31,761 bases of DNA from a virus: positions 1 to 31,761 of IMG/VR virus record IMGVR_UViG_3300043777_000070; one strand, written 5' to 3'. Within the stretch, counting starts at the first letter, position 1, and the number at the start of each line of letters is the position of its first letter. The position numbers were made by a program, and so were the translations under genes. Below are positions 1,293 to 28,273 of the stretch, piece by piece. The notes below the pieces were generated by a model. It saw nothing but the letters and a program-made list of their open reading frames with translations, was not told where the DNA came from and did no database searches.

Positions 1293-3035
1293 TCAATTGA
1301 AACATGCCCCACAAGCCCCAGTCAGAGTATTGCTTATTCCGCCCTGCCCTAATGCCCCGATATTTGGTGCACTCCCGGTCAAAACTTGTGTGCCATCGGA
1401 CTTACTGTACAGCCAGATGTGATCCCCAACGGAACGAGAAAAACCGCTCGCCATGGTCAGCGTGTTCGTCGAGTAATTCACTGCGGAGATGCAAATGTGA
1501 TTGCTGACCGTTGTGACCGAGATGCAGTCGGCTTGAACTCCAGCAGAAGTTAACCCGAGGCCATCCTGAAAAAATCCGGCATCCGTGACGACTAGCGAGG
1601 TTCCTGATCCGGAATCGCCGGAGGCCACAGTGGTCAAATACGTACCAGCGTTGAGGGCCGCTGACCCGGAAGCAAGGTTGTAATTGCCACCCGAATAGTT
1701 CGCCAGCGGGTCACTGGTGTCTAAAATATTCGCGACGATCACCGGCGTATCGGCGGCGAACAGATAGGACGTTCCGCCGCGCTGCGTCTGAATTCCGCAC
1801 GGAGTCGCGGAGCAGTAGGCTAAATTCGCGCCCGCCGTGAAACCTGTGGCCGATCCTGACGGGACAGGGTAGGCGTACCATCCCCATGACTGCGGAACAG
1901 ACTGCGGATAATAGAACAGGTTGTTGATCTCGGCCCCGCCGGTGCCGGAATCCCGATAATCCGTCGAGGCGGGAGAGGCCAGCGCTCCATTGTTTGGATC
2001 AACCCAGGTGTTGTTGTAATACTTGACGTTCAAAAATCCGCTGGTTTGCGCGGCGGTCGCCGAACCGAAGTGGGAGAACACGTTGTAGCGCCCGATGACA
2101 TTGAAGCAACTTGTTCCGCAGCCGCTGGGATTGTCCGCAGCAGTCCACAGGCCTTTGCCGTCCACGCCTACAACGTTGGTTGCAACGTTGTTTTCCCATA
2201 ATTGGTACTGGACCACATAGTTTGCCGCTGTATTGCTGCGCTCCGCATAGAGCATATCCATGTGGCAGTTGCCGGACGCTGAACCGCATTCGGATTCGTA
2301 TATGTCATGGAAAAAGTTGTTTCGTGCGACTTCGTACTGGCCGTACATTTCAACCACGATGCCAAAGTGAGAAAAGTCGTTATTCTGCTCGAAAATATGG
2401 TTCCCACTGTTGCTAATCGCCACGCAGTTGTTGGGAGCAGATGAAGTCCCGCATCCATAACTAAAAGTGTTTCCTGTGATGTAGACGTAGCTCGATCCGT
2501 TCGTAGAACCCATTGTGACTTCTACGTCATTGCCCAAGCCGCATTGAGACATGACGTTGTTCGTGAGGTAAACATCCGTAGAGCCATCGACAATGGTGAC
2601 ACACCCCCCGCTCTGAGAGGGCTGGGTTATGCTGAATCCACATGAAGCTACCGCTGGCCTGCTCGTTGCGGTAGGAGTCGGGCAATTGCCGACCAACTTG
2701 GTGTGAGAGTTTAGCGTAAACCCGCCACTCACGTTTACCACGTCTGTGCCATTCACGGTTATGGTCTTGTAATTTCCAGCAGTTCCCGCTGGCACGGATG
2801 GAGATTCGTTATATGTCGCGGCATAGACGGTACAGGTATCGCCGGCAGCCATCGCCGTCGCGCAGGCTTGGATGGTGGTGTAGTTCTTGCCACTCGGCCC
2901 CACGGTGTAGTTCGTCGCCCACGCGGTTGGCGCAAGCGCTATAATGCCCCCGAGGAGAATGAGCCATGAAGCGCATCGCAGTTGTGGCAGTGATCGCATT
3001 GAGTTTCTTTGCTGGCCGATGGTCGAATCCGACAT
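1293..3035 (-). CDS. Exported right-handed beta-helix protein (tailspike/depolymerase-like)
   Basis: 580 aa. A signal peptide is visible: a basic N terminus, the core WLILLGGIIALAP and cleavage after AWA at about residue 40. From about residue 150 to 350 there are recurring Asn-rich turns (NNVMSQ, GNTFSY, NNFFHD, YNNTWV, INNLFY) spaced about 20-30 residues apart, as in right-handed parallel beta-helices of pectate-lyase-like proteins and phage tailspikes. It carries about 18 cysteines outside the signal region, unusual for a cytoplasmically assembled virion protein but expected for an exported one. The start may be 3035 (AGGGAAC upstream) or ATG 2999; both keep the signal peptide. No catalytic residues could be assigned, so the lyase role is inference. 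Confidence 0.8.
   Translation of the reverse strand: MSDSTIGQQRNSMRSLPQLRCASWLILLGGIIALAPTAWATNYTVGPSGKNYTTIQACATAMAAGDTCTVYAATYNESPSVPAGTAGNYKTITVNGTDVVNVSGGFTLNSHTKLVGNCPTPTATSRPAVASCGFSITQPSQSGGCVTIVDGSTDVYLTNNVMSQCGLGNDVEVTMGSTNGSSYVYITGNTFSYGCGTSSAPNNCVAISNSGNHIFEQNNDFSHFGIVVEMYGQYEVARNNFFHDIYESECGSASGNCHMDMLYAERSNTAANYVVQYQLWENNVATNVVGVDGKGLWTAADNPSGCGTSCFNVIGRYNVFSHFGSATAAQTSGFLNVKYYNNTWVDPNNGALASPASTDYRDSGTGGAEINNLFYYPQSVPQSWGWYAYPVPSGSATGFTAGANLAYCSATPCGIQTQRGGTSYLFAADTPVIVANILDTSDPLANYSGGNYNLASGSAALNAGTYLTTVASGDSGSGTSLVVTDAGFFQDGLGLTSAGVQADCISVTTVSNHICISAVNYSTNTLTMASGFSRSVGDHIWLYSKSDGTQVLTGSAPNIGALGQGGISNTLTGACGACFN
2940..2957 (+). promoter_or_regulatory. TATAAT box plus Shine-Dalgarno before the plus-strand small ORF
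   Basis: A perfect TATAAT lies at 2940-2945, and GAGGAG at 2952-2957 precedes the ATG at 2966. No good -35 is seen 16-18 bases upstream, and a start site 7 bases after the box would leave almost no leader before the Shine-Dalgarno. The box could be chance within the signal-peptide codons of the opposite gene. Confidence 0.25.
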
Positions 3036-3127
3036 TAAAGTTCCCTACCCCGACTGGCAATCCCCCTGTAAAACTGGATCGTATGTGCTACGGCGACTAT
3101 TACAAGACTCATCCCTGCCCAGATTAG
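2966..3127 (+). CDS. Candidate 53-aa secreted protein, antisense to its neighbours
   Basis: Plus-strand ORF starting MKRIAVVAVIALSFFAG, a compact signal peptide or anchor, followed by a Pro/Thr-rich segment and a C terminus containing DRMCYGDYYKTHPCPD. A strong Shine-Dalgarno GAGGAG (2952-2957) lies 8 bases before the ATG. The stop TAG (3125-3127) interlocks with the stop TAA of the minus-strand gene 3124-5181, a 4-base convergent overlap. Positions 3036-3123 have no convincing minus-strand gene, while 2966-3035 is shared with the start of the beta-helix gene. Composition is protein-like with two Cys. The function is unknown; a small secreted or lysis-related protein is possible. The main doubt is that every complete neighbour runs the other way. 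Confidence 0.45.
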   Translation: MKRIAVVAVIALSFFAGRWSNPTLKFPTPTGNPPVKLDRMCYGDYYKTHPCPD

Positions 3128-5181
3128 TTCGGCGCAAATGCCCCCCACGTCCCGAACCGATCCCAATACGGAGACCCCCACCATTGGCTGGAAGTGACGC
3201 CGCAGCTTCCGCCCGCGTTCTTGCCGAACTCAAACACCCCCGTGGCGGTCAGGTTCCAGAACGCCACGCCTGCATTGGTTAGAGCTGTGTTGGCGGGGCT
3301 TGAAAGTGTGACCGTGATCGGCCCTGAGCCTGAAGCTGCCGAAACTACCGTGCCTTGAATGATTCCCGTCGCGCCTACCGCGTACCCGGCGGTGATCGTG
3401 CCAACGCCGGGGGCCACGCAGCTCATCGAGGTCGAGCCGGAAGAGACGGTGCAGTTGGTTGCCACTTTTAGGTTCGCTGGAACGGTATAGAAATTAACCG
3501 TCGTGCCGCTTACCCCGCACGTCGTAGGCTGCGAGAGAGTGATGCTGGTCGTCCCTCCGCCAGCCTCGATCAGCGTAGGCCATGGGAGGCAATTTCCAGT
3601 CGGATCGAGGAGAAGTTGGCCATTCACCGTGGAAGTGCCAGACGATAGGGTCATGCTGGTCGCGCCCGAGGAGACGGTGCCTGTTGGAGACACGACGGGC
3701 GTTGGAAGCGTGCAGGTCGCATTCGCTCCGTTCGTGCAGGTGTGGTCGAGGTTTATCGTGCCCAGCAGACTCCATGTGGGCGACGTATGGCAGTTTGCCG
3801 TGCCGCACGAATAGATAAGCAGTTGGTGATATCTTTCATTCGCTCCGGCAATGTGCTCCTGAATGAAGTAGTCCTGATCCATGTTCATCGTCGGACTGGC
3901 CGAAGCCGGGGAACCTGCATTCTCGACCGTCTCCATCTTCATCGTGTAGGTAGTCCCGGTAGCCGCCACGTCCATCTGTCCGATAATCTGGCCGTCGATT
4001 CCCCCTCCTGCTATCGAGAAGTTGTCGCAGGCAACACTGTTGGTCGCTCCAGAGGATGCCATCCTGAAAAAGAAGCCTGCCCAGAAGGGCGCTCCTGTGC
4101 TTGACCAGTCATCCTGCACCGAGAAGAACCCGGTGGCCGTGCCGCCTGCGACCAGCATACTGACCCCGGCATCACCGAAGGTGTGCGCCACTTGATTGAC
4201 CATGATGTTTCGCGTGCCAGTCGCGTTCACGGTGCTGTCGTAGGTGGGAGCCGTGCCGTTAAGTGTCCAGTAAGGGGAAGCGGCATTGAAGTGAATGTTT
4301 GCCAGCGTGCTCCCTGCCGCGCCCAACAGGGTCGTGGACATGGTTCCAGTCGGCGCACTTCCCGGCGCACCGAAAGGCACGAACATCCCGGTCATCGAAC
4401 GGGTTCCCCCGGTCGTGCCCAACGGTAAAAGCGCAATTTGGGAATCTATTGTGGCGATGCTTGTGCTGTTCCCCGTGAACGGGCCATTGACCGCGGTAGC
4501 GGTGGTCTGGATTTGATACTCCGCGGCCTGCCGAACCTGTGAGGAGCCGACCAGTGTTAGCGTTCCAGAGGGCAGCCAGCTTCCACCACCGGAACTCGGC
4601 GCGGTGGCGGAGTTCCGCGACATCCATGCTGCGACCGCTTCATTGTTGCTTAACGGAGCAGTGGACGTGCCAGAGGTTGGATTCGTGACCGTGGCGCTGG
4701 TGGTTTGCTCCGCGCCGCCTGCGTCTAACACGTTCGACGCCGCTGTTCCTTTGAAGGCATAACAGAGTAGATTGGCCTGCGCGTTGGGGACGGCGCTGTA
4801 ATAAATCTGTGGAGTAATGGACCCGCTGGCCGAATTCTGCTTTACCGCGATGACGAGCCAGCTTAGGGTGCTATTGGGATGGGCCGCACCGTAAACGTTC
4901 TCATAGAACCCATTCACGGAATCCATGACCGCGCCGGTCTCGTTGTTTCCGCCACTCTGCCCATAAGACCCGCAAGCGATCGTGCTTCCTGCCGATAGAG
5001 TCATCGCGGAGGAGCAGGAAATGTAGTTGGTCGAACCGCTGCCGGAGCAGGGAGAACCGCCGTTGTCTAGGGTAATCGCTTGCACCCCTGACTGGACATT
5101 CATCACCCCCTGCAAGATGCCTTGTGCGTGGGCGAATCCGCAGAGCAGAATCAGAACGCTAGTTGTTCGTCCAAGTCCCAT
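3124..5181 (-). CDS. Exported tail-fibre/adhesin-like protein
   Basis: 685 aa. The N terminus MGLGRTTSVLILLCGFAHAQ is a clear signal peptide with cleavage after AHA. The rest is rich in Ser, Thr, Gly and Ala with many predicted beta strands. Residues about 270-460 contain aromatic and hydrophobic beta-strand stretches (FGDAGVSMLV, GFFSVQDDW, PFWAGFFFRMAS) that look like a jelly-roll or lectin-type fold. A low-complexity segment with repeated TLSSGT/SGTTSI-like pieces follows. No family is recognised with certainty. It overlaps the upstream fibre gene by 23 bases. Position among three similar giants suggests receptor binding or surface attachment; the signal peptide makes a secreted role equally possible. 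Confidence 0.75.
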   Translation of the reverse strand: MGLGRTTSVLILLCGFAHAQGILQGVMNVQSGVQAITLDNGGSPCSGSGSTNYISCSSAMTLSAGSTIACGSYGQSGGNNETGAVMDSVNGFYENVYGAAHPNSTLSWLVIAVKQNSASGSITPQIYYSAVPNAQANLLCYAFKGTAASNVLDAGGAEQTTSATVTNPTSGTSTAPLSNNEAVAAWMSRNSATAPSSGGGSWLPSGTLTLVGSSQVRQAAEYQIQTTATAVNGPFTGNSTSIATIDSQIALLPLGTTGGTRSMTGMFVPFGAPGSAPTGTMSTTLLGAAGSTLANIHFNAASPYWTLNGTAPTYDSTVNATGTRNIMVNQVAHTFGDAGVSMLVAGGTATGFFSVQDDWSSTGAPFWAGFFFRMASSGATNSVACDNFSIAGGGIDGQIIGQMDVAATGTTYTMKMETVENAGSPASASPTMNMDQDYFIQEHIAGANERYHQLLIYSCGTANCHTSPTWSLLGTINLDHTCTNGANATCTLPTPVVSPTGTVSSGATSMTLSSGTSTVNGQLLLDPTGNCLPWPTLIEAGGGTTSITLSQPTTCGVSGTTVNFYTVPANLKVATNCTVSSGSTSMSCVAPGVGTITAGYAVGATGIIQGTVVSAASGSGPITVTLSSPANTALTNAGVAFWNLTATGVFEFGKNAGGSCGVTSSQWWGSPYWDRFGTWGAFAPN

Positions 5182-8100
5182 AGCCCACGCCTGTCACCAT
5201 GTAGTGCGTCGTGTCCACACCTTCCATGCAGACAAAATCCCCTGCTGCACCGCCTGATACGAGCGTTCCGGTCGTCACCGTCCCATTGGCCCCTTTGTAA
5301 ACGATGTACACCGATGTCGTGCTCTTGACGGTGATGACTCCAGTCTGCCCTGAGTAGTTGCCAAAGCAATACTGCTTCCCCGCAACCGGGGAATCGAGCT
5401 GGAAAGTATAAGCGCCGCTGGCATCGTTCCAGTAATAACCCGTCAGCCCCAGCAAGGTGTATGGCGAGCCGCTGGTCTGAACTAAGTTGTAAACCGTGTT
5501 CGTGTAGGCGGTGGTAGCTACCTTAGTGGAATTGTCCCCCGCTGTTTGCGTGGTGGCCGTCGCTGATCCTAAGCAAGTTGCGGCAGTGCAGGTGATACTC
5601 GTATTGGCAGTGATCGTTGTTCCTGTGATCGCTGCCGGGGTAGTGCCGCCAATCGCACCGGGGCTAGGGAAGGAAGATGTTGAGCCGCCAAGAGACACCG
5701 TGGTGCCTGCGATGGTGATGGAGCCATTGACTGCGCCGTTCCCCACTACCTGCCACTGACTCGCCGTGGAGTTGTAGCACATCGGAATTGGTGTATTGGC
5801 AGGGATCGAATGCGGCGAGGTTGTCAGTGTCGTCGTGTAACCGCTGGAGCCGGGTACGGCCACGGAAACAGCGCTGGAGCTATCTACGTTGATCGTTAAT
5901 CCCGTGCCGCTGTTAGCTGTGGTGGTGCTATATAACATGCACAAATTGTTAACGGGGGCAAATGTTCCCGCCAGAGTGCAACTTTGCGCTGTTCCTGAAC
6001 CAGAAGTGTCATAACAAGGGTTGATTACGCCTTCAACCTCGATTGCGCCAATAGTTCCAGCGGTCCCTGAGCCGCTCGCGGTTCCTCCGACTCCAGGCTG
6101 AAGTATGACCGCTCCCCCGTTCCCGCCGGAATCGTTGCCAGCTTGCCCAGCCCCTCCGGGACCGCCTTCTATGATGGCAGCTCCGCCTCTGCCGCCTACG
6201 GTCGCCGTTGTGCCCGCTCCGGTTGCCGCTCCACCCGTACCGCCAATGATCTGAGGAGAACTGCCCGCTCCTCCGGTTGCTGTACCCGTGGAAGAGGTCG
6301 CGCCGCCCGTGCCCCCCTGTACTACAAATACATATCCCGCAGTAGCGCCAGTCCCTGCACTTGAGGCTGGAGCTGCTTGGGTAAGCGTAATGCCCGTGAC
6401 GGAAGTGTTTGGCAAGGTGAATGTGGCATCCGCTGTGGGATTCAACAAGCCTGTCGCTGTCTTATCGAAGGTCGGATTGATATAGCACAGCGAGCCGCAA
6501 GTCATTCCGGTGAGTGGAGTGTTGATTCTGACTTCCCAGATTCCACTCGCCCCTTGATTTGCAGTAAACCAGGCATTATTTGGAATGCTCGCAGTCGTCT
6601 GACTGGCCCCTTGAGTCCCTAGACCGCCAGAGACGGTAAACGTGTCCGTGGAAGTTGCATTCAGCGTCAGGCTTGAGCCTGTGAGGTTAAAGCCCGTGAA
6701 TACCAGATTGGAGCAGCCTGAACCCGTGGACAGAGGAATGATGACGGGATTTCCGCCCGTCGTGAAGCGAATGGCTTTGGTGCGGTCCTGCATGGTGGTT
6801 CCGCTATCGCATTCAATCGTGTAAGAGGCCGATGCCAGACTTACAGGAGAGGTCGCGCTATCTGACATTCCGGGAGACAACATCAGAGGCGGTCCTGCCG
6901 TGCCATCTGAAACCCAAGTCTGCCCAATGATTCCCGGCCCTCCACCTACGGCGGTATTCGCTGGATTGAAGTAAGCCGTCTGATATTGAGTGCCCGTCCC
7001 ACCTCCAACAGGGCAGGTAATCGAGAATGTAGACCCGGACAACGCTGAAGAAGTGCAGCCAGATACGAAGTTGAGAATCGGTGTGCCTGTCGCCGTGCCT
7101 TGGCTGGAACCATTATTGTCAACCGTCAGCCCTGCCAGCCCTCCACCGCAGGTTCCATCGACATAGTATGTGCCATTTCCGCAGAGGGTATGGCCGCTCG
7201 GAGCCGCGCCGCCCACCTGGAATCCGGTCGTGGCATTGAAGATTCCCGCCTTGATCGTTCCGACGTAGGTTCCGCCCGAGCCGCAGGAGTTCGCTGCATT
7301 CTGGGCCGTGCCGAACCAGCCATTGTTATAGAGATGGTCATACCGTGAAATCGTCGAATCGCCCGTGGCGCTGGTGATAGAGCAGCCGCGCGCGTTATCC
7401 ACGATCACGTTGGTCCAGCTGGCGGTGATGTTTTCGGTTTCAATCTGGGTTGCGGCATTGGAACCAATGTTGATGGCGGTCTGACCTGTTCCGGTTACAG
7501 CAAAGTCGTGGAGATGTGCGCCTGCCGCAACATTGACAGGCTGAGGACAATAAACCGGGCAGGCCGTCATGGGAACGCCGCCCGTGTTCTCGCCCACATC
7601 CACGAAGATGTTGGTGCTGGTGTTGTTTCCCTCGAAGTGAATCCCCGGCCCGAAGTCTCCGCCTTCCTCAAAGTCCACCGCTACTTCTCCTGCCCCAGAA
7701 GTGCAGCCATCGAAATTGACTGTCGTGTTTTCAATGGGGTGAAGCGAGCCGGGAATTCTTGTGATGATAGCCCGTGTTGCCGAAGTGCAACTTGAACTCG
7801 CATTCATCACCATCCGGTCATAGGGGCCGCTATTAACTGCGTTGATTCCCTCAATGTCCAGATAGGTGTCGATTACGTTGTTGATGACGACGTGTGTGAC
7901 GCCGGAGTTTTCCTGCTGCGAAAAGTTCGTGAATGCCGTGCATCCCGGCTCGTTATTGCAACTGATCGTTCCGCCTGTCCATGTGGCCGAAGCCCCGCCT
8001 GAGTCTCCACCATCGGCACCCATGGCCCCTAACCAGATCAACGGGGCTTTGATGACGTAGTTCACGGCACTGCTGTTCGCTGCGCCTGAATTAGCATTGG

Positions 8101-9589
8101 CAGTTGCGACGATCAGGTGGGTGTTGTCCGTGACCGCTATCACCATGCCGTAGGTGAGTTGTGCTTGACCGCCAACTGGCGCGTTAGACCCGCAAGCCGT
8201 CGCGCAAGTCGTCGTGCCATTACCCCCGCAGGCCGGCCCGTTCGCGCCGGGATAGGTCGTGCCTTGGCAGACACCGAATTCCTCTCCTACAAACACATTG
8301 CCAACAAACGAACACCCGGAGGAGCATGTAACCGTGAACTGATACTGCCCGGAGGAAATGGTTGATGGCGCACCCGTGGTGACCGTCCCTGCGGTATAGA
8401 TTCCCGGCCAAGTGCTTGAGGCGGTGATGGTTGCATTTTGTCCGAAGGCGCTGATTACTTCCACGTCCCAACACCGGGGCACGGCGATTGGAGTACTGGT
8501 TGTGATCTTCGTCCCGGCATTGATTCGGAATTTGCCGCAAGTCACCGGAGACGTAATGTTTGTCGTGCCATTTGATAAGATTCCAGCCCACGGGCTTGCC
8601 GTCCAGACTTGATTCCCAGTCACGGCCGAGTCGTCAATAATGGCATACCCGCCGCCTGAACCCGGAGTTCCCGGAACCGCTGCAATGGCATTGGCGATGC
8701 AGATATTGTCATTGGTTCCCGGTGTACACGTTCCTGCGCTGCCAGAATGAAAGCCTGTCTGCGAAACGTCGAGATAAAGCAGGGAAGTGGCATAGGTCGT
8801 AGACCCAGCAACGTTTGACAGAGGCTGGCCCGTATTGCCGCTGGGAGTTCCGCTTCCTCCAGAACAGGGTACATACGTTCCCGCCCCACTCAAGCAGTTT
8901 GAGGGAGAACCAGTGCCAGGTAGATAAGCACTAACATTCGGCCCGACAACCTGAAAATTGACATTTACGCCATTTGTAGGCGCTGCCGGAGTGGTATTGT
9001 TTAAGTTCGCTGGGGCCGTAGCAGCAGAATTGACCTGAACCGATTGAACTGCCGTGTAGCACGGATTTGGAGACAGCGCCGTGGTGAGTTGAAGGTATTG
9101 CCCGTTTGTCGGCGTGAAACCCGTGCAGAATTTGACGGTATCTAAACCCTTCACAGTCTGACTGGTCGGACTCCCTACCAGGTCACCCCCAGCCGAGAAG
9201 TTCCCGCTCCCACCAACACCCGGAGGGTATTGATCTGGCAAACATCCGCCATTCGCTAATGTTGGAACCGCTAAAGCCGAACCATAAAAGCAGTAAGTGT
9301 AAGGAGCTGCCCCCTGATTAATGTAGAAGAAGTAATTACCCAGCCCATTAGCTTGAACCGGAAACGACCCCGTATTGCAATTGACATCAGTCAGCGAGGC
9401 GCAGAGGGGGGCAAGCGGGGAACAGTAAGGGGCTGTAGTGGTGATCGTAGCTGGTTGAGCGCAAGCAGCGACATAAGCCCCAGCCGCGGGATTGTTATAG
9501 CGCGACGAGATCACGCCATCGACTCTGGAGTTTTGGGCAACGGCAATTGTACAAATGCTGAGGAAAAGCAGGGTGAGTAGTTTTCTCAT
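5159..9589 (-). CDS. Giant exported tail-fibre-like protein with glycine-rich domain
   Basis: 1476 aa. Residues 1-18 form a signal peptide (MRKLLTLLFLSICTIAVA, then Q). The following region (NSRVDGVISSRYNNPAAGAYV) looks like an extracellular beta domain with paired Cys. Residues about 550-830 carry beta-helix-like stretches with Asn turns. Residues about 1085-1180 form a glycine-rich block with repeated GGxGGA motifs, resembling polyglycine-type adhesin tips. Near residue 1310 are the tail-fibre motifs IGGTTPAAITGT and then TQTAGDNSTKVATTAY, both familiar from phage fibres. The C terminus is a compact beta region ending GYGTWTNN. The fibre motifs support a virion adhesin, while the signal peptide and Cys content argue for export. 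A 60-base gap precedes it, with no clear promoter. Confidence 0.85.
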   Translation of the reverse strand: MRKLLTLLFLSICTIAVAQNSRVDGVISSRYNNPAAGAYVAACAQPATITTTAPYCSPLAPLCASLTDVNCNTGSFPVQANGLGNYFFYINQGAAPYTYCFYGSALAVPTLANGGCLPDQYPPGVGGSGNFSAGGDLVGSPTSQTVKGLDTVKFCTGFTPTNGQYLQLTTALSPNPCYTAVQSVQVNSAATAPANLNNTTPAAPTNGVNVNFQVVGPNVSAYLPGTGSPSNCLSGAGTYVPCSGGSGTPSGNTGQPLSNVAGSTTYATSLLYLDVSQTGFHSGSAGTCTPGTNDNICIANAIAAVPGTPGSGGGYAIIDDSAVTGNQVWTASPWAGILSNGTTNITSPVTCGKFRINAGTKITTSTPIAVPRCWDVEVISAFGQNATITASSTWPGIYTAGTVTTGAPSTISSGQYQFTVTCSSGCSFVGNVFVGEEFGVCQGTTYPGANGPACGGNGTTTCATACGSNAPVGGQAQLTYGMVIAVTDNTHLIVATANANSGAANSSAVNYVIKAPLIWLGAMGADGGDSGGASATWTGGTISCNNEPGCTAFTNFSQQENSGVTHVVINNVIDTYLDIEGINAVNSGPYDRMVMNASSSCTSATRAIITRIPGSLHPIENTTVNFDGCTSGAGEVAVDFEEGGDFGPGIHFEGNNTSTNIFVDVGENTGGVPMTACPVYCPQPVNVAAGAHLHDFAVTGTGQTAINIGSNAATQIETENITASWTNVIVDNARGCSITSATGDSTISRYDHLYNNGWFGTAQNAANSCGSGGTYVGTIKAGIFNATTGFQVGGAAPSGHTLCGNGTYYVDGTCGGGLAGLTVDNNGSSQGTATGTPILNFVSGCTSSALSGSTFSITCPVGGGTGTQYQTAYFNPANTAVGGGPGIIGQTWVSDGTAGPPLMLSPGMSDSATSPVSLASASYTIECDSGTTMQDRTKAIRFTTGGNPVIIPLSTGSGCSNLVFTGFNLTGSSLTLNATSTDTFTVSGGLGTQGASQTTASIPNNAWFTANQGASGIWEVRINTPLTGMTCGSLCYINPTFDKTATGLLNPTADATFTLPNTSVTGITLTQAAPASSAGTGATAGYVFVVQGGTGGATSSTGTATGGAGSSPQIIGGTGGAATGAGTTATVGGRGGAAIIEGGPGGAGQAGNDSGGNGGAVILQPGVGGTASGSGTAGTIGAIEVEGVINPCYDTSGSGTAQSCTLAGTFAPVNNLCMLYSTTTANSGTGLTINVDSSSAVSVAVPGSSGYTTTLTTSPHSIPANTPIPMCYNSTASQWQVVGNGAVNGSITIAGTTVSLGGSTSSFPSPGAIGGTTPAAITGTTITANTSITCTAATCLGSATATTQTAGDNSTKVATTAYTNTVYNLVQTSGSPYTLLGLTGYYWNDASGAYTFQLDSPVAGKQYCFGNYSGQTGVITVKSTTSVYIVYKGANGTVTTGTLVSGGAAGDFVCMEGVDTTHYMVTGVGYGTWTNN

Positions 9590-11778: not shown

Positions 11779-12308
11779 TAGATGTGTCCACCTCCGGCAC
11801 TGGTCGGCATGAAGGCATTAATGTAGCCGAGCGCGGTTTGATCTCCGCCCGGCCCTGCTGCCCTCGCACTGAGAGTTCCCGGCCCAAGGCCATACATCCG
11901 CTCCATTGCTTCTAAATCTCCAGACTCAAGCCCTTCAAGGCCTGCCATGCCACCAACCTGGCCCTTCATTTTTTGGTTCTGTAGGGTGGCCGCAGCACTA
12001 CCGCTACGACTGCCTTCTTCTAGCGCCAGAGCGTCTTCGCCTGATTGAACTCCCGCAGGGTTTCTCGTAGCCGCAGCGCGATTGGAGGTGTCAAACTTCG
12101 CAGATTCAAACGGTGCCGTTGCCGCACCCATTTCCGAAGTTGTCGCCGCACCTTCTTCGGCGGGATTCAGGTAGCCGGTATTCATCAGCGACTCGTATCC
12201 CGGAATCAGTTTGCTTTCTAGTCCTGAAGCCTCCGCGCCCTCCTGCCCGGCAATATTATTAGTGAGACCAAGTTGAGCGCCCGCCGCTTGCGATTGTCCG
12301 CGTGCCAC
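11778..12308 (-). CDS. Ala/Gly-rich structural protein, possibly an ejection protein
   Basis: 176 aa from GTG at 12308 (VARGQSQAAGAQLG). This start was chosen because TAG of the upstream gene and the GTG share a base (TAGTG), and AAAGGTAGG sits just upstream. The longer frame to 12341 lies inside the GNAT-like gene. The protein is helical, rich in Ala, Gly, Gln and Glu, with a central motif (IPGYESLMNTGYLNPAEE) followed by TSEMGAATAPFESAKF and NRAAATRNPAG. This repetitive helical pattern recurs in virion proteins of podovirus-like soil phages. There are no cysteines, signal peptide or membrane segment. Position between the nozzle-like gene and two internal-virion-type genes supports a virion role. 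Confidence 0.65.
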   Translation of the reverse strand: MARGQSQAAGAQLGLTNNIAGQEGAEASGLESKLIPGYESLMNTGYLNPAEEGAATTSEMGAATAPFESAKFDTSNRAAATRNPAGVQSGEDALALEEGSRSGSAAATLQNQKMKGQVGGMAGLEGLESGDLEAMERMYGLGPGTLSARAAGPGGDQTALGYINAFMPTSAGGGHI

Positions 12309-12703
12309 TACGCACCTACCTTTCGGCTGTAGCAGACCCACAACGGCTTGAACCAGCCAATCCGCAGCAAAGTCTTGTGAAGTTTGCTGTCCATTATCAG
12401 AGGCGGTAAAAACGCATGAATATCCTCAAACCCCGCGCGCGCCGCTGGCCCCATCATTTCCTTGTTGAGAATCAGCATTCGGCCGACACGCTCTTTATGC
12501 GACAATCCGGGATCGAAGCACCAATATGCCTCTGAAGTCTTCCGCAGAAAGACCGCATCCGTCACCCGCCCCTTATCCTCAATCACAGCCCGAACCAGCA
12601 TGGAGGATGCCTCAAGGTCGGGGAGTTCGTAATCGAACCCCTGCGCGGCATGAAGCGCTTTCACTTCCGGCAAATCCTCCTGCGTGTAAGGTCTTACGAG
12701 CAT
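12308..12703 (-). CDS. GNAT-fold acetyltransferase-like protein
   Basis: 131 aa. It begins MLVRPYTQEDLPEVKALHAA, the typical first strand and helix of GNAT acetyltransferases, followed by FDYELPDLEA. A central strand (AVIEDKGRVTDAVFLRKT) matches the beta2-beta3-beta4 sheet, and the C terminus has HKTLLRIGWFKPLWVCYSR, like the last helix and strand. The usual acetyl-CoA motif Q/RxxGxG/A is not obvious; the corresponding stretch reads HKERVGRMLILN. It could therefore be an active enzyme with a divergent loop or a non-catalytic GNAT-fold protein. Its start shares TGATG with the upstream 53-aa gene. GNAT-like genes inside phage structural operons are known, but their substrate is not. Confidence 0.7.
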   Translation of the reverse strand: MLVRPYTQEDLPEVKALHAAQGFDYELPDLEASSMLVRAVIEDKGRVTDAVFLRKTSEAYWCFDPGLSHKERVGRMLILNKEMMGPAARAGFEDIHAFLPPLIMDSKLHKTLLRIGWFKPLWVCYSRKVGA

Positions 12704-12864: not shown

Positions 12865-13063
12865 CGGGAACCGCTCCTACGAAGTTGAATCTCAGGTCAA
12901 TCTTCGGGACAATGTGTTCTGCCATTTCCTGCATGATATTTTTGTGCTCGCCGCAGAGAATTGCCAGCGTTTTGAAATAGACGATCTCACCCTTTTCGTT
13001 GCGTTCCGGGCTGCTCACCTTCCACTGCGCCCAGCGATTGCAGCTTTCCGTGCAGGTCATCAT
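12836..13063 (-). CDS. 75-aa hypothetical protein with Cys and His
   Basis: Begins MMTCTESCNRWAQWKV and ends GAVPDGAFNPQSR. The first ATG overlaps the stop of the nozzle-like gene as ATGA; the longer frame to 13135 lies inside that gene and was rejected. Residues CTESC near the start and CGEHKN near residue 37 could bind a metal or form a small beta-hairpin zinc site, which is inference. The C terminus (HIVPKIDLRFNFVGAV) is strand-like. It overlaps the next gene by 29 bases. No family is recognised. Confidence 0.65.
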   Translation of the reverse strand: MMTCTESCNRWAQWKVSSPERNEKGEIVYFKTLAILCGEHKNIMQEMAEHIVPKIDLRFNFVGAVPDGAFNPQSR

Positions 13064-16000: not shown

Positions 16001-16635
16001 CCGAAAAGCGTTTGCGACTGGTAGAACAGGTTCTGGTAGGGCCGCGAATTTATCAGGGTTAAGGTTCCCTGGGGATCTTCCTTGAACATATCGCCTAGGG
16101 AATCCCAGATCATCAGATCCTTGCTCCCGGCAGGCGTCAGGTAGGTCTTGAGGCCGTTAATCGAAGCGCTCGAAGGAATCTGTCCCGTGCTCGAGATCAT
16201 GCCAGTCTCGGTGGAACTGTAGGTCGGATTCACGAATGAGAAATTGAGGTAGACCACTCCGGGGAAAAACGGGTAGTGCGGCGGGCTGATTTGCACCGAC
16301 GTGCACTCCAATTCCTCTTCGTTCAGGAAGGTCGCATCGGGGTAGTCCTCAAAGGCAAACGTCACCCCGACCAGAAAATAGGGGTTGGGTATGTAGCCGA
16401 TGCCGACCTGGAGGACATTCGAGACAATGCTGACGCCATTCGTCGGAATCCCCTCGACCGGGCCGCCGAATATGACACCAGAACCCAAGCCGCCCCGCGT
16501 CCTCACCCCAGCTTGGGGAAAGAACACATCTTGCGCGATGTTTGCAGACCCTGGCGGGAGATTTTCGGGAACGATGGCGGGCGTATAGCCGCCAAAAACC
16601 TCCACCGGCAAATCGACAAGCGTTTCATCTATCAT
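13060..16635 (-). CDS. Tail nozzle/hub-like giant protein (P22 gp10-like position)
   Basis: 1191 aa. The N terminus (LPPGSANIAQDVFFPQAGV then RTRGGLG) matches the pattern seen in tail hub or nozzle proteins of podoviruses, where an opening strand is followed by 'Leu-Pro-x-Gly-Ala...Gln-Asp-Val...Arg-x-Arg-x-Gly'. Residues about 270-480 are Ig/fibronectin-like beta repeats rich in Val, Thr and Gly. Residues about 690-830 form a carbohydrate-binding-like beta domain (LTSYSVRARLAYTG, IVVEAAGTL). The C-terminal 330 residues (GDGQNLRAGFPLRNSLYLAK, WAVFAERSGLYICWG) again look like nozzle propeller blades. It follows a 136-aa structural gene by three bases and has no strong Shine-Dalgarno, so coupling is likely. 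Assignment rests on pattern and position. Confidence 0.7.
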   Translation of the reverse strand: MIDETLVDLPVEVFGGYTPAIVPENLPPGSANIAQDVFFPQAGVRTRGGLGSGVIFGGPVEGIPTNGVSIVSNVLQVGIGYIPNPYFLVGVTFAFEDYPDATFLNEEELECTSVQISPPHYPFFPGVVYLNFSFVNPTYSSTETGMISSTGQIPSSASINGLKTYLTPAGSKDLMIWDSLGDMFKEDPQGTLTLINSRPYQNLFYQSQTLFGREYQAFFNSLGGFDIPRQYDDTNWDRVSHSGPGIAPTASDISFALVTISRASSTGVITLTVVAPSTTNFAAGGLCNITGVTADPTLTGQFPIFSAVYSVGTWTLTLWGAFGAYQISAVQRAGGTVTATLEQTVSVPPSTTVIVSGVSDSSYDGEFTTATLSGNQVTWPQTGANSVSAGGFLYVQNVKAPVYSAAPQAYGTAPVNTPGIQLVGNVSGFVLGGSIVVAGNSVSGWNATWPISSQIAPLFVPPGTAGLPPGPLTVQGMTVVYLVTGTSVPGSIGYGGTASASLPASNPAVTGVAGPAGNISQGLHNVSVAYINRQGYISKGAPWSTWYAGGGFQAAIAGIPTGPPNIAQRLLLFTPVISPPAVTGTWYSLPTGTTALSTPTAMLIQDNVTTTAIVDFEDAILISGFQAEYLFNELELGECAAMLPYNARTVWLGERARVPNFLNMGFDGGFTGSLPNGWTGGAGGGGGSALASGFPADWGDAYAITGDGVTANRGIITQSAYQDYLQVSILQPLTSYSVRARLAYTGVAPTQGIVSIRLQSGFTLTAGLQVNATSLTTAYQEFIATFTDAPFASVPPNLQIVVEAAGTLTNGTTVLIDSIEPFPLLTPFNSSTARLSYAFNPEGFDAVTGQVQIRPGDGQNLRAGFPLRNSLYLAKDHYLGYITDDGVNEPSSWTFTEVSATIGICGSNAVDWNEEWAVFAERSGLYICWGSDPVKITPEIQSDATFSGRTSWASINWTAAYTIWVRIDKINRKILIGAPINGAVTPNVVFMLDYRWLDTAEEIAMSPMVTYSAFTGKMLAHGKGRRWAIWNITSNSFTYAERADGSAQPFFGNGIGNGKIYWQQDVAIQPNDDGAVINWQYQTYALPSAMEEQQMQLRAHRKLLGYMKWRAIGPSGYTMGVGITTATRSTILRPYSLSPNPLGDGERPVNIHAERFFLTFYGTGLGAWAQLEKAIACVKKDAVALVRGLSS

Positions 16636-19376: not shown

Positions 19377-19693
19377 TAAGCTCCAGAGTCGGTAACGTCA
19401 AAGATCACCGTGCCAGTTCCCCCGGCGGTCGGAGTCCCTGTCACTGTGAAATTGCCCGAAGCATCCACCGCAGCCGTCAGGCCGGGAGGAAGCTGGCTCG
19501 GACTGGATGGGTCAATGGTTGGGGTCAGATAGGGAGGTGTCCCGCCGCTAACTTCAGCCAGCGGAGTGGAGGGCGCAGCCGTTCCCACGGTCAACGAATC
19601 TGTGACGGTAGAAGGGGTTGCGACCAGAGGAGGAGGCGGCGGCGCGCCTCCGGCAATGTTGAAGGTTACAGTGATCTGTACTGTCTGTGGCAT
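19376..19693 (-). CDS. Ig-like beta-sandwich protein
   Basis: 105 aa from MPQTVQITVTF. GAGGAG lies 10 bases before this ATG. A second possible start at 19753 (AGGAA upstream) would add 20 basic residues; the shorter form was preferred for the stronger site. A poly-Pro stretch (GGAPPPPPL) is followed by an Ig-like or putative-Ig (He_PIG type) repeat: SGGTPPYLTPTIDPSSP, LPPGLTAAVDASGNFTVTG and TPTAGGTGTVIFDVTDSG. Such domains decorate phage capsids and bind carbohydrates weakly. Position right after the capsid group supports a surface decoration role. Confidence 0.7.
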   Translation of the reverse strand: MPQTVQITVTFNIAGGAPPPPPLVATPSTVTDSLTVGTAAPSTPLAEVSGGTPPYLTPTIDPSSPSQLPPGLTAAVDASGNFTVTGTPTAGGTGTVIFDVTDSGA

Positions 19694-20172: not shown

Positions 20173-21426
20173 TTAGTAGCCGCCGACTGGTAGAGCAAGT
20201 CCATCGAAGAAGGCGCCGTATCTGGGTTGATCCATGAAAACGTTGAACACGGTGTCGAAATACTGGAGGTATCCAGCTTCCAGACCGCCCGACGCTCCAT
20301 AGACCTGATACGTGGTTTGGCCGCCCAATTCAAACATGTCGATCTCTTTGGTAATGCCCCGGCCCCAGTGCTTCAACAAGATGATGTCGATGCGCTGGAT
20401 TGTGGCATGGATCGAGGTTTTGATTGGAATGCCGCCAAAGGTCTTGGGGGCATGGCGCTTCAGCGGATCTTCGGAGGAATCGCCGGAGACTTGATTGAGA
20501 ATGATCGAACTGATGGTCAGCCCTGCATTCTCCCAAGCCGCCTCCTGGTCTACGTTCATGTAGGCCAGCATCGGTTCCTCGAAGTTCACTCCCAATACCC
20601 TGCGGAGCTTGTTTTCGCCCAAGCGCCGGAGGGCAGGAGTAATGGTCGCTCCGCCCGCGGCAACGTGAGGCGTCTTCAAGGCTTCGGGATAAGTCGAGCG
20701 CGCCAGGTTGTTCCACGACCCTGACTGCGAATCAACGTGGTTATAAAGCAATCCCTCAAGAGAGACAGGATTTGCTCCGCCGGCACCCTGCGAAATGTTG
20801 ATAACCAGAGCATCCGTTACCGAAGTCCCTGGAGGCAGAGCGTTGAAAGTGACGGTCTTGAGCAGCGGATCAACCGTTGTCACCGTCGCCAATCCGCGCG
20901 ATGCCGAAGCAAGGCCAGTGGGATAGAACTGAATGTCCTGGTTGAAGTAGAACAGGTTCGGGTTGGTGACCGTGCAAACCGTTCCACTGATGGCCGAGAT
21001 GGTATCGAGCTGTCCCGTCCCGTTGGTGTTGTAGACGCAATCGAGGGCGCGTTTGAACATCTTCAGCGCTTCTTCGACTTCCCTGACCGCTACATCTTCC
21101 ACAGCCTTATCATTCCCCTTGCTCGCATACTCGGCGAGTTTGGAGATTTCAAAGGCAAAGCGGAAATGCAGGGTTGAGAGCGTGCCTACATCCCAGGTGG
21201 ACCCGGAACCACGACCCATGTCATCGAAGTCGGCAGTTCCTTGGCTGAATTTCCCGCCCGGCCGGATGAGCTGAGGCAGGCGGATGTTGCGGGTGGATGC
21301 GTCGATGGCGTCACCCTTTTTGTCGATCATATCGAGCAGAATTACTTCCTGCTCGTAGGCGGTGGGCACCGTCTTACGCACTTTCTCCAGTTGCAATGCA
21401 ACGGAATTTAGATTTGTTGCTGGCAT
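20173..21426 (-). CDS. Major capsid protein (HK97-fold type)
   Basis: 417 aa, a normal length for an HK97-fold capsid protein. Residues about 25-75 give an N-arm-like region (EVILLDMIDKKGDAIDASTR, then RLPQLIRPGGKFSQG). Next is a long helix (FEISKLAEYASKGNDKAVED), then a beta-rich stretch with an Ig-like insertion near residues 145-225 (GTVCTVTNPNLFYFN, LATVTTVDPLLKTVTF). The C-terminal third (LAYMNVDQEAAWENAG, GGIPIKTSIHATIQRIDIIL) matches A-domain-type strands. CGGAG precedes the ATG. It directly follows the scaffold-like gene and is followed by a hairpin. The call rests on order, size and pattern; no HK97-type crosslink residues were assigned. Confidence 0.85.
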   Translation of the reverse strand: MPATNLNSVALQLEKVRKTVPTAYEQEVILLDMIDKKGDAIDASTRNIRLPQLIRPGGKFSQGTADFDDMGRGSGSTWDVGTLSTLHFRFAFEISKLAEYASKGNDKAVEDVAVREVEEALKMFKRALDCVYNTNGTGQLDTISAISGTVCTVTNPNLFYFNQDIQFYPTGLASASRGLATVTTVDPLLKTVTFNALPPGTSVTDALVINISQGAGGANPVSLEGLLYNHVDSQSGSWNNLARSTYPEALKTPHVAAGGATITPALRRLGENKLRRVLGVNFEEPMLAYMNVDQEAAWENAGLTISSIILNQVSGDSSEDPLKRHAPKTFGGIPIKTSIHATIQRIDIILLKHWGRGITKEIDMFELGGQTTYQVYGASGGLEAGYLQYFDTVFNVFMDQPRYGAFFDGLALPVGGY

Positions 21427-21520
21427 GGCGTGTTCTCCGAGATAATCGAGATTTTTACTGCCCGGAGACGCGCGGGACGGCGGAAACCCGGTTCAATCGC
21501 CGTTTTTGTCTGCGGTGAAG

Positions 21521-22927
21521 CTAAGAAGTCTTGAGATGCAGGCCGCGGAGTATCTCTGCGGTCGTGAAACGTGTTCCATCCTTCTTTTTCCACACTCCAC
21601 CCTCTTGATAAGGGCCAGTGCGTTCGGTTTGCCGTGTTTCTACACGATTTTCGGGCCGTCTTGGCACCTGCGTCGTGCCGCGGGTGCGCTCCCGGTTCTG
21701 GCGGACCAGATTTGGCGTCTCTTCGGCCAAAACTGACCGCACAAACTTGTTCAGCACCCAAGGATAAGACCATTGGGCGCGTTCAATCTTCAAAGCCTCC
21801 TGCAAATTCGCTCCGTTGTAGGCTTCCCGCAGTTTTGTCATGTAGGCGCGCGAGGTTCGCAGGTGCTCGGTGATCTTTTGCTGAATCTTACGGACAATTT
21901 CCGTCTTTTTCTCTTCAGAAATGGCCTTCGTAGTCAACATTTCCGCGACGGCCGGGTGTTTCCTCACAATGGAAGCCTGTTGCTTCTGGCTTTCCGAGAA
22001 GAATGTTCCCTTGAAGCGGGTAAAGTCCTGATTTTGCCGCTCTTGTGTCTCGCGGCGGAACTGTTCCCGTTGCCCTTGTAGTCTGCGTTCATCTTCGGAA
22101 GGCTCCGACTTGCGTTTGAGGAACCCTTGCGCCCAACGCAGCATCTTGTCGATTGAGGCAGACAGGCTATCCTGCTTGGCTTCCTTGGCCGAGTCCCGCA
22201 GTTCAGTCAGCCATTCAGGAATCTCGCTTCTCTGAAGGGTCGAGCCTACGATAGCGCCCATGACTTCGTTGTAACTGTCAGGATCAAGGCGTGCCCATTC
22301 TTTCGGCAAAGTACGAAACAGCGAAATCGCCGCATCCCGGTCATCGGAGAACAGATTCGCAATCATTTGGGAGTGTCCAGTGTAGTTTCCTTGGGCATCC
22401 CGGCCATAGAAGCTCTTGTCCAGTTCTTCGACTTCGGCAATCTCGGCGTAAATCTGTTCCACGTCCGCCATGCCGTTCGGGAACTGCTCGCGCATCGCGC
22501 GCGCTTCGGCAACCGTGGGATAAATCTCACGGAAAGCCATGTCGCGGCGGAAGGCTGCTTCGACTTGTTCTTGAACTTTGGGGTATTTCTGGAAAACCGA
22601 GGCTAGTTCCGGGGCTTCTTTCTTGAGCGCGAGGAGGCGCTTTGAGACGAGGCCTTTGAGGTCAGCAGTCTCTTTATCAACTTCGGGTTGCCGCTGTGCG
22701 GTTTGATCCTGTTCAGCAGATACTTCTCCAGAAGTGTCGCCTGCGGAGGCATCGTCAAGGCCTCCGCCAGTGTCGCCGCCAAGGTCGGCATCGCTTCCAG
22801 TTGCCGCGCCAGAATCTGCGCTGGAGTCAAATCCTACATCGCCACCGTCTCCGCCTCCGACTGTTACAGCACTCGTGGCGAACATTGTAAGCCCGAACAG
22901 AAACCACTGCACGAAATATTTAAGCAT
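21521..22927 (-). CDS. Scaffolding-like protein with hydrophobic N terminus
   Basis: 468 aa. Residues 1-22 are hydrophobic (MLKYFVQWFLFGLTMFATSA). Residues about 23-80 are acidic and Gly/Asp/Ser-rich, and the remainder is long, charged and helical (for example KRLLALKKEAPELASVFQKY and EKKTEIVRKIQQKITEHL), as in scaffolding proteins. The C terminus is basic. The start at 22927 has GTAGGAG at ideal spacing and an 8-base overlap with the portal stop. A shorter start at 22885 (MFATSAVTV) lacks a Shine-Dalgarno. The gene sits between portal and major capsid, the usual scaffold position. The hydrophobic N terminus is unusual for a scaffold. Confidence 0.75.
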   Translation of the reverse strand: MLKYFVQWFLFGLTMFATSAVTVGGGDGGDVGFDSSADSGAATGSDADLGGDTGGGLDDASAGDTSGEVSAEQDQTAQRQPEVDKETADLKGLVSKRLLALKKEAPELASVFQKYPKVQEQVEAAFRRDMAFREIYPTVAEARAMREQFPNGMADVEQIYAEIAEVEELDKSFYGRDAQGNYTGHSQMIANLFSDDRDAAISLFRTLPKEWARLDPDSYNEVMGAIVGSTLQRSEIPEWLTELRDSAKEAKQDSLSASIDKMLRWAQGFLKRKSEPSEDERRLQGQREQFRRETQERQNQDFTRFKGTFFSESQKQQASIVRKHPAVAEMLTTKAISEEKKTEIVRKIQQKITEHLRTSRAYMTKLREAYNGANLQEALKIERAQWSYPWVLNKFVRSVLAEETPNLVRQNRERTRGTTQVPRRPENRVETRQTERTGPYQEGGVWKKKDGTRFTTAEILRGLHLKTS

Positions 22928-25786: not shown

Positions 25787-25919
25787 GTTTCTTCTTCTCA
25801 GGTAAAGAGCCTTTTGGGGTCGCAGCGTCCCATTCGGAAACGGCTGATTTGCCGCCGAGCGCTTTTAAGCCACTCGCGCTGTGACCCCAGCGGGCCTGTG
25901 CCTTCGACAACCAAGGCAT
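25752..25919 (-). CDS. 55-aa basic protein, MPWLSKAQARWGHS type
   Basis: Starts at ATG 25919, which shares TAATG with the previous gene; the longer frame to 26096 lies inside that gene and was rejected. MPWLSKAQARWGHSASGLKA followed by LGGKSAVSEWDAAT is a pattern I recognise from short phage proteins near portal genes, without a known role. The C terminus (PEKKKHAIPRRKKRPS) is very basic and is nearly the same as the tail of the 69-aa gene at 25360-25569. An A8 run (25763-25770) lies in its last codons. Confidence 0.7.
   Translation of the reverse strand: MPWLSKAQARWGHSASGLKALGGKSAVSEWDAATPKGSLPEKKKHAIPRRKKRPS
25763..25770 (-). other. A8 slippery run in a two-frame overlap
   Basis: Eight A residues on the minus strand, followed by GG, lie in the stretch shared by the 55-aa and 74-aa genes. 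The downstream frame is +1 relative to the upstream one, so loss of a single A during transcription would fuse them. This is a possibility only; ordinary initiation at 25786 also explains the layout. Confidence 0.35.
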
Positions 25920-26785
25920 TACTGCACCGACTGAACCTGTGAATATCCCCAAGCCTTGATATGCACCACGCCCGCCCCTGAAGCAGCGTTCGCAGTGATA
26001 ATCAAAGGCGTCAGGGCATACGACGTACCTGTAGCCGACTCCGTGGGCGCTACGTTCTTCGCCGAGCAGTTCAGGCCCGCCGTAAGAGACGCGCACGAGG
26101 TATAAAACAGCGTGGTCGAGCCGGCGATGCCGAGCGAATACGTCGCAGTCGTGGTAATCGTGGTCGTGACGTAAGTCGATGCCCCTGTTCCTACCGCATT
26201 AAGCGGAATCTGGCAGTTTGTCGTGGTTGTCGTCACGCCACCCGTATTCATGGTGACGCGGCCACAATCTGCCTCGAAGTTGACTTGCCCTCCGCCGTTC
26301 AACCCGGCATCGGTAATCGCCTCTTCAATTCCACCATCGCCTGAGACAACCAGTGCGCTCTGCCCGTGCGTATTGGCAAAGTTGCCCGTGATCGTCGCGC
26401 AGGCGTTGCCGCTGCCGCCCACTCCTAGATTCCCGGCAGGACAAGTCGAAACCGTAACGCCCGTAGGAGTCACAACTTCGGCGTTGGCGTCCTGCACGTA
26501 GATCGGAGTGCTGGTATTGAACACGGTTGAAAGTGGCAGGTTGGTGCCATCCTTCAGGCCAACGGTCTGCCCTGCAGCCGCCACGATGATCGACGTACCA
26601 GCTCCGGTCGTGGTGTTGCCGGAGATGATCGTTGCCTGCCAGGTCGAATAGGCAGGCGCGAAGAAGATGCTCCCAAACCGATGATAAGGCGGGGAGTTCT
26701 GTGAAAGAACGTTGCCATACTGTTGACCGAACGCGGCGAGACTCAAGGCGAGAATAACCGCGAAACTGCCTAATACTTTCCTCAT
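25919..26785 (-). CDS. Exported beta-rich protein between terminase and portal
   Basis: 288 aa from MRKVLGSFAVILALSLAAFG. AGGAGA lies 8 bases before this ATG; the frame is open to 26908, but those extra residues lack a Shine-Dalgarno and hide the signal peptide. Residues 1-20 are a signal peptide ending AFG then QQ. The rest is Thr/Ser/Gly/Asn-rich and all-beta (for example GTSIIVAAAGQTVGL, ALVVSGDGGIEEAI, TTTITTTATYSLGIAG), resembling the exported adhesin-like genes at the left of the block. It contains six cysteines, mostly in the C-terminal two thirds. A surface or virion adhesin is plausible, but placement between terminase and portal is unusual for one. Confidence 0.75.
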   Translation of the reverse strand: MRKVLGSFAVILALSLAAFGQQYGNVLSQNSPPYHRFGSIFFAPAYSTWQATIISGNTTTGAGTSIIVAAAGQTVGLKDGTNLPLSTVFNTSTPIYVQDANAEVVTPTGVTVSTCPAGNLGVGGSGNACATITGNFANTHGQSALVVSGDGGIEEAITDAGLNGGGQVNFEADCGRVTMNTGGVTTTTTNCQIPLNAVGTGASTYVTTTITTTATYSLGIAGSTTLFYTSCASLTAGLNCSAKNVAPTESATGTSYALTPLIITANAASGAGVVHIKAWGYSQVQSVQ

Positions 26786-26843
26786 TGTGGTTTCTCCTGA
26801 TTGATTCGCGGGTTTTGCCGCGTGGAACCTCGTGATACTGAAA

Positions 26844-27101: not shown

Positions 27102-27433
27102 TATTGGCCTCCTTCGCCTGCTGCTGGTATCGCTTCAGTTTCTTCGGTTTCATCGCCGCCTTGTCCTGCCGGGGAAAATAAGTCACAACAACCTTCTGCC
27201 TCGACTTGGCCGTTAACTTCTGGATCAGACTGGACTTGCGGATTGTTGCATTGATTTGGGGCTTGGAAGTGGATGCAGTTTTCACACTCAAACGGGCCGT
27301 TCTCCGGGCCTGCGTAACCGGACTGGGCTGAGCCAATCCCAGCGTTAGGGTCAGACTGCCCGGACATCGACGGGGCTGCGGGGTCTGGGGGGGCCATATG
27401 TGCGGCACGTTGTGGATTCATAAATGCGCCCAT
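27101..27433 (-). CDS. Cys-cluster small protein (CENCIHF type)
   Basis: 110 aa. GGAGAG lies upstream and the ATG shares TAATG with the previous gene. A flexible Ala/Pro/Gly-rich N terminus is followed by CENCIHFQAPNQCNNPQV and then VEAEGCCDLF (Cys 50, 53, 62, 82, 83). I recognise this C-x2-C-x8-C plus CC-x-[LYF]F pattern from small phage proteins; it looks like a compact metal- or iron-sulfur-binding module of the HiPIP-like kind, which is a family resemblance only. The C terminus is acidic. An overlapping frame (27091-27408) was judged a shadow. Confidence 0.75.
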   Translation of the reverse strand: MGAFMNPQRAAHMAPPDPAAPSMSGQSDPNAGIGSAQSGYAGPENGPFECENCIHFQAPNQCNNPQVQSDPEVNGQVEAEGCCDLFSPAGQGGDETEETEAIPAAGEGGQ

Positions 27434-27693
27434 TAGCTTGTACTCTCCATTCTCTCTCCCACGGGAGCGCGCCGGCCGCCATCCGTAGCTTCAAGGACCG
27501 CCCTGCGCTGCTGCCACGACAAACCCTTTTGCTTTGGAGTCTTCAGTTCCTTGCGCTTTTCCACAGGCACATCCGCTAAAGTCTCGGCAATTGCCCCTTC
27601 GCGGTCGTACTTCGTCACAAAATGCCGCTCCAGGTCTAAAAGCCTTTGCTCGACGCCGAGCCATCGCAGAATGAGACGCTTCAGCCAGTTCAT
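27433..27693 (-). CDS. 86-aa hypothetical helical protein
   Basis: Begins MNWLKRLILRWLGVEQRLLDL, an amphipathic or membrane-surface helix, followed by charged helices (ERHFVTKYDREGAIAETLAD, KGLSWQQRRAVLEATDGG). The start follows the previous stop by four bases with no clear Shine-Dalgarno, and the stop shares TAATG with the Cys-cluster gene. The WLKRLILRWLG pattern might associate with membranes. No family is recognised, and reading-frame continuity with its neighbours is the main support. Confidence 0.6.
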   Translation of the reverse strand: MNWLKRLILRWLGVEQRLLDLERHFVTKYDREGAIAETLADVPVEKRKELKTPKQKGLSWQQRRAVLEATDGGRRAPVGERMESTS

Positions 27694-27697
27694 AAAA

Positions 27698-28273
27698 TCA
27701 ATCGATGATCGTGTAATAAACGCAGGTTTGGCCCGTCGTCGAGGCTAGTGTGATCGTAAAACTCGTTCCTGCGGAAATCGCTGAAATTGTCGGCTCTTGC
27801 GTGATGGCCGGGGCTACGCAGGTCGGAGAACTCGGAAGGTCGGCCGCGAACGTAAGCCACGTAAGACCGATTCTGCTGTGCGCCGTGACCGCCGAGGTGT
27901 TTACTGTGTAGGTTCCAGTCGTGGTTGGGATAACTACCGCGCCTGCTGCCGCTGACCCGCAGACCGCCGGAGATACTGAATTCACCGCGCAGTTGCTGCC
28001 CGTTGATACTGTCGTGAACGTCCCTGCGGCTGGAGTCGTTCCGCCAATCGGCCCCGCTGAAGGAATACTTGTGGCTGTGATCGCGGCAAAGGTTTGGGTC
28101 TGGGTCCATGTATTCGCCGCGTTTGTGTTTGCCCCGAAGTTCTGCTGCTGGCCCATCAGGACTAAGGCAACGCCCAGCAGCAAACCTAACCACAAAAGTT
28201 TACTGATAAGTAATCTAAACCCGGCTTTTGACCCCATTTTGTCCTCTGAAGCCGATGCAGATTTATTACTCAT
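27698..28273 (-). CDS. Membrane-anchored or exported protein with fibre motif IGGTTPAAGTFT
   Basis: 191 aa. A hydrophobic segment occupies about residues 23-41 (ISKLLWLGLLLGVALVLMG), preceded by basic residues, which suits a signal anchor or signal peptide. Residues 42-100 include TNAANTWTQTQTFAAIT then SIPSAGPIGGTTPAAGTFTT, a motif common in phage tail fibres and shared with the giant protein at 5159-9589. Three or more Cys lie in the C-terminal half, which is beta-rich. ATG 28273 has AGGA within range; ATG 28237 (GAGGA just upstream) is an alternative start. A fibre-like extracellular protein is the best guess. Confidence 0.7.
   Translation of the reverse strand: MSNKSASASEDKMGSKAGFRLLISKLLWLGLLLGVALVLMGQQQNFGANTNAANTWTQTQTFAAITATSIPSAGPIGGTTPAAGTFTTVSTGSNCAVNSVSPAVCGSAAAGAVVIPTTTGTYTVNTSAVTAHSRIGLTWLTFAADLPSSPTCVAPAITQEPTISAISAGTSFTITLASTTGQTCVYYTIID

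Follow-up and report, generated by a model that had tools for sequence, protein, structure and literature searches.

Sec signal peptides on fibre-like proteins of an uncultured phage lineage suggest a possible assembly of the virion in two cell compartments

Why should the fibre-like proteins of a tailed phage begin with signal peptides? We know of no tailed phage that exports its fibres before they join the virion. Passage of virion proteins through the host membrane is a feature of filamentous phages and of others whose virion proteins are inserted into the membrane, but such phages assemble differently and are not tailed. In the open-access literature, a search for tailed-phage fibres with signal peptides turned up only exported lysis enzymes; phage proteins that use the host Sec pathway, such as Lys44 of fOg44 and the SAR endolysins (PMC6116005), are likewise lysis enzymes and not large fibres or virion parts. 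The question is raised by a 31.8-kb IMG/VR virus record (the window, meaning the whole stretch of DNA analysed), a fragment of a phage genome that comes with no host genome, in which the original prediction had placed five signal-bearing open reading frames (ORFs). All five are present, on the minus strand and with signal scores of 31.8-36.8, and a sixth, S123, had been overlooked. The features are the following, with all cleavage sites predicted:

1293-3035, minus strand: F580, fibre-like protein of 580 aa with 19 Cys; signal peptide 2916-3035 (..LILLGGIIALAPTAWA^TNYT), score 36.5
3124-5181, minus strand: F685, fibre-like protein of 685 aa with 15 Cys; signal peptide 5125-5181 (MGLGRTTSVLILLCGFAHA^Q), score 31.8
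5159-9589, minus strand: F1476, the large fibre, 1476 aa with 45 Cys; signal peptide 9536-9589 (MRKLLTLLFLSICTIAVA^Q), score 36.8
9275-9535, minus strand: conserved N-terminal domain of F1476 with a Cys pair, running from the predicted cleavage site (alignment, PDB profile, AF2 and fold comparison)
13060-16635, minus strand: large tail (nozzle-like) protein, without signal; in relatives it marks the place directly upstream of the fibre block
20173-21426, minus strand: major capsid protein (MCP), PHROG major head protein at E 2e-5; without signal; 2 Cys
25919-26785, minus strand: F288, 288 aa with 6 Cys; signal peptide 26726-26785 (MRKVLGSFAVILALSLAAFG^Q), score 34.1
26441-26443 and 26399-26401, minus strand: codons of the F288 Cys pair C115/C129
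27698-28273, minus strand: F191, 191 aa with 4 Cys; signal peptide about 28151-28273, score 34.1
28753-30297, minus strand: TerL, PHROG 979 at E 6e-11; without signal
30826-31197, minus strand: S123, 123 aa; signal peptide 31141-31197 (..CIPALA^Q), score 37.9

The claim that the fibres contain Cys (about 18 in the 580-aa protein) while the capsid protein has two is borne out by these counts. F191 had been described as signal-anchor-like; its hydrophobic start is there, but it need not be an anchor, as a plausible cleavage site (..LVLMG^QQQ) follows. Pfam and PHROGs gave almost no matches to the window fibres, and sequence comparison of F580, F1476 and F191 with solved structures gave no useful match. 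F580, beta-helix-like by eye, has no match in Pfam, PHROG or PDB, and the F191 C-terminus weakly resembles the K1-lyase C-terminal domain (PF24146, E 9e-6, 26.5 bits against a cut-off of 27). F685 overlaps the end of F1476 by 23 bases. S123 lies near the small terminase gene and is without known relatives.

The lineage was delimited through the terminase and capsid genes. A TerL scan retrieved 38 related viral contigs, portal, MCP and tail homologues are syntenic in relatives, and a capsid-profile scan of bacterial genomes found MCP relatives exclusively in Acidobacteriota (41/41); because some of the contigs that carry them are several hundred kb long, these relatives are prophages of that phylum. 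The capsid-profile search found no relative in 50,697 cultured phage records, and the nozzle-like protein had no match among cultured phages. The window phage is an uncultured phage of soil Acidobacteriota, and it appears to share the exported-fibre pattern with dozens of relatives. TerL, portal, a putative HK97-type capsid and tail genes lie in one module, as in Caudoviricetes. A podovirus-like morphology is suggested by the order of the genes, which include one for a 1191-aa tail protein and others for alanine-rich proteins free of Cys.

Signals were scored with a home-made Sec/signal peptidase I scorer, which looks for a basic n-region, an uncharged hydrophobic core and small residues at -3/-1 and calls a score of at least 28 positive; decoys and homologues were counted with a slightly relaxed version. 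Known E. coli signal peptides scored 29-36, with PhoA missed, while 6 of 1687 internal-Met decoys (0.36%) reached 28, and so did none of the virion proteins of T7 and lambda, the outer-membrane protein Lom scoring 39. In the window every fibre-like ORF carries a signal, and by sequence these proteins have the basic n-region, hydrophobic core and A-x-A type of site of Sec and signal peptidase I substrates. Other structural proteins of the lineage hardly ever look like this: in sixteen other families, among them TerL, portal, MCP and the nozzle-like protein (0/35), a single homologue out of 352 reached 28. That count was kept apart from a scaffold-like 468-aa protein encoded before the capsid gene (21521-22927), the hydrophobic N-terminus of which is conserved in relatives (L011 and L012 have LPWLLPxFGMFFxAGAD, and L025 has a similar stretch) and signal-like by score in four of nine homologues; it may bring this protein to the membrane. 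Shine-Dalgarno-like sites precede 15/17 and 22/28 of the starts upstream of the signal, the best upstream start having been picked, as compared with 32/114 and 29/131 internal starts.

Two unrelated families could be followed across relatives. When F1476 or F288 was used alone as a direct query only one relative each was found, because both proteins diverge fast, and profiles of the mature parts were used instead. The F1476 profile (the region after the signal), run over the TerL- and MCP-derived loci, located the large-fibre domain at 28 loci, in 27 proteins of 460-1720 aa and one 82-aa fragment. All 28 begin with a signal segment, 17 of them by score, two more by score and about nine by eye, the latter accepted where His or Gln interrupts the core or where the c-region is long. 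The Gln of the predicted cleavage site is exactly where the conserved sequence sets in (QGSRKDDIVFNSRGIPLAGATVRVC..PC.PLA.IYSD....), and the two Cys of the domain are near-invariant in the alignment (C25 invariant, C38 at least 90%), while the body that follows is variable; a conserved N-terminal domain joined to a variable body is the usual build of a fibre.

An AF2 model of this domain (pLDDT about 80, residues 1-85) has as its closest solved structure the head-binding domain of the cyanopodophage Pan3 tailspike (9vyg_o, Z 7.6, rmsd 3.0 over 87 residues), with P22 and Sf6 tailspike domains near Z 6 and transthyretin-like folds scoring close by, and the sequence profile retrieved two podophage tailspike domains from the PDB (E 0.07 and 0.6). 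The two lines of comparison are weak but in agreement, a Z of 7.6 being too low to decide a fold; Pfam Head_binding was matched in only one of 23 (E 0.035). Like tailspikes of the P22, Sf6 and Pan3 type, the window-lineage fibres have an N-terminal domain, here putatively head-binding-like, and a long, variable, probably beta-structured body, and their genes follow those of the tail. Described tailspikes are not known to carry a signal peptide and fold in the cytoplasm, whereas these fibres have the signal, the Cys pair and many further Cys. The domain also matches Pfam CarboxypepD_reg (E 1e-7), which is common in secreted host proteins. The idea that it is a generic host adhesin was rejected, since only three of 297 sampled Acidobacteriota genomes carry it (at E 1e-10). 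As a separate observation, a 175-kb phage contig (L040) encodes at 8301-8774 a signal-bearing 157-aa protein that shares 68% identity with the F1476 end over its C-terminal 108 aa, which suggests a fibre tip module exchanged with a larger phage.

The F288 mature-domain profile yielded 22 ORFs (the window included, one truncated match omitted). In most loci the gene lies between TerL and portal, and this holds even for a capsid only about 31% identical. A signal segment is present in 18 of the ORFs (the window, 13 others by score and four by inspection), and the remaining four (L020, two paralogues in L022, and L027) begin with the domain itself. The C-terminal half of F288 has a predicted jelly-roll fold like that of phage tail-complex and capsid cement proteins, with matches to proteins of KHP30/KHP40, Pam1, GP4 and R4C at Z 7.2-10.5; the best is the siphophage R4C baseplate-tail protein (Z 10.5), followed by capsid proteins of KHP30 and Pam1 (Z 8.2 each) and GP4 (Z 7.9), the KHP matches being trimeric cement proteins. 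The F288 profile found no match in the PDB, and the likeness, which came from the fold search only, would make this half perhaps a phage cement protein. What sets F288 apart from those cement and tail proteins is a further N-terminal domain together with the Sec signal, and many of its relatives carry other domains in place of the C-terminal half. Foldseek matches to insect toxins and to insect or fish virus coats were set aside as generic jelly-roll likeness.

If the signals are real, an adaptation to an oxidising compartment would be expected together with the signal and should be absent from signal-less relatives. In the F288 family, the pair C115/C129 is intact in 17 of the 18 members with a signal and in none of the four without (Fisher p 0.0007, with phylogeny ignored and two of the four being the L022 paralogues). 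In the large-fibre family the sole signal-less orthologue belongs to L129, a prophage of the same lineage (with portal, MCP, g225, g258, nozzle and GNAT homologues), where a 171-aa protein (15622-16137) starts directly in the domain with MAITRIDRVV.. and lacks both Cys (QVYFLTQPANVETLTPLASVYSD, against TVRVCAxPAxGQPCxPLAxIYSD). The gene is followed by a separate Cys-rich ORF, ending at 19627, with a probable signal peptide, so that L129 may hold a split fibre, its head-binding-like domain made as a gene product of its own beside an exported fibre, as would be expected of a joint between two compartments. Signal and Cys thus seem to have been gained or lost together in two unrelated families, which argues that the signals are real and that the proteins fold in an oxidising compartment, as had been proposed. 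Signal-bearing proteins of at least 500 aa are also richer in Cys, with a median of 1.84 per 100 aa as compared with 0.97 (p 1e-11). The original prediction held that the same fibres occurring without the hydrophobic N-terminus would speak against it; a few such relatives exist, but they lose the Cys pair as well, which strengthens the export reading.

The export of fibre-like proteins into an oxidising compartment is well supported by these comparisons, from which we infer cleavage and disulfide bonds; virion incorporation and its timing at lysis are more weakly indicated. Taken together, the fibres are probably exported, folded and disulfide-bonded in the periplasm and joined to virions at lysis, and attachment outside the cytoplasm is the best of three explanations that had been offered unranked. 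It fits best because a domain like a virion anchor begins at the predicted cleavage site, because the genes belong to the tail module, and because the regions read showed no clear candidate for a fibre without a signal, though one might lie outside the window, which is a fragment of the genome. In such a scheme, the capsid, portal, nozzle and ejection-like proteins would be made and assembled in the cytoplasm, while fibre and decoration proteins would be made as Sec precursors, from which signal peptidase would remove the signal after A-x-A, in most cases ahead of a Gln. The mature fibres would fold with disulfide bonds in the periplasm, phage lysis proteins would break the inner membrane and so bring virions into contact with the fibres already there, and the large fibre would dock on the tail through its head-binding-like N-terminal domain, by then exposed. 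The full two-compartment assembly is a proposition for which we see an even chance: the capsid and tail core would be built in the cytoplasm, the periplasm would be the site of the disulfide-bonded fibres and perhaps of a capsid-decorating protein, and the two would be united only when the envelope breaks at lysis.

In the chief alternative the exported proteins do not belong to the virion but are adhesins, depolymerases or decoys, secreted or surface-bound during infection or lysogeny, which could mask receptors, block superinfection or clear polysaccharide. Signal peptides would do exactly that, many relatives are prophages in Acidobacteriota genomes, and the CarboxypepD_reg likeness of the large-fibre N-terminal domain points the same way. 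The genes, however, occupy the tail module and the interval from TerL to portal and not moron positions, and no other clear candidate for the fibre turned up in the regions read. The F288 domain occurs without a signal in relatives too, its C-terminal half resembles virion cement and tail proteins, and in the cultured phage Tunturi_1 proteins of the comparable pattern are annotated as a tail spike (gp14) and a virion structural protein (gp17). Secreted decoys or depolymerases are a possible but distinctly less likely reading. The N-termini might instead have nothing to do with export, serving as uncleaved virion membrane or tail anchors, or being bypassed by translation from a downstream start. 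F191 and the scaffold-like protein have anchor-like segments and hydrophobic termini are known in some phage proteins, but the A-x-A-Q motifs with the conserved domain beginning at Gln, the Shine-Dalgarno-like sites upstream of the signal and the covariation of the Cys pairs make this improbable, and the retained membrane anchors of the original prediction fare poorly. Chance hydrophobic starts or mis-called host genes, conceivable with a simple predictor and a metagenomic window, are already refuted by the comparative data, namely the low decoy rate, signals that are conserved across dozens of contigs and in prophage loci of Acidobacteriota, and a gene order that fits phage modules.

If periplasmic folding and joining at lysis hold true, they would break the working rule that tailed-phage fibres fold and are attached in the cytoplasm, explain how large Cys-rich receptor-binding proteins come to be stabilised by disulfides, and tie phage infectivity to the export and oxidation machinery of the host. 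Gene callers and fibre finders should then keep signal-bearing phage fibres instead of discarding them as host proteins.

Tunturi_1 and Tunturi_2 are cultured podoviruses of Acidobacteriota that infect Tunturiibacter, and the paper describing them does not mention signal peptides (PMC11924767). Tunturi_1 carries five signal-bearing proteins (gp12, gp13, gp14, gp16 and gp17, with 20, 10, 21, 2 and 32 Cys, respectively), all in the structural block, of which four are large and Cys-rich, and Tunturi_2 has a 100% match to gp12; no such signal-bearing fibres were found in Tunturi_3 and Tunturi_4, from the same host genus. Tunturi_1 shares with the window phage the host phylum and the signal-bearing structural-block proteins, but sequence comparison detected no relation to the proteins of the window, so the pattern may be an independent occurrence. 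The cultured pair of Tunturiibacter and Tunturi_1 makes the export model testable. A further trait concerns the tail module itself, inside which the window has a GNAT-like gene (12308-12703) that is kept in L063, L065, L067 and L129; an annotated acetyltransferase is also found among the tail genes of Tunturi_1 and Tunturi_3.
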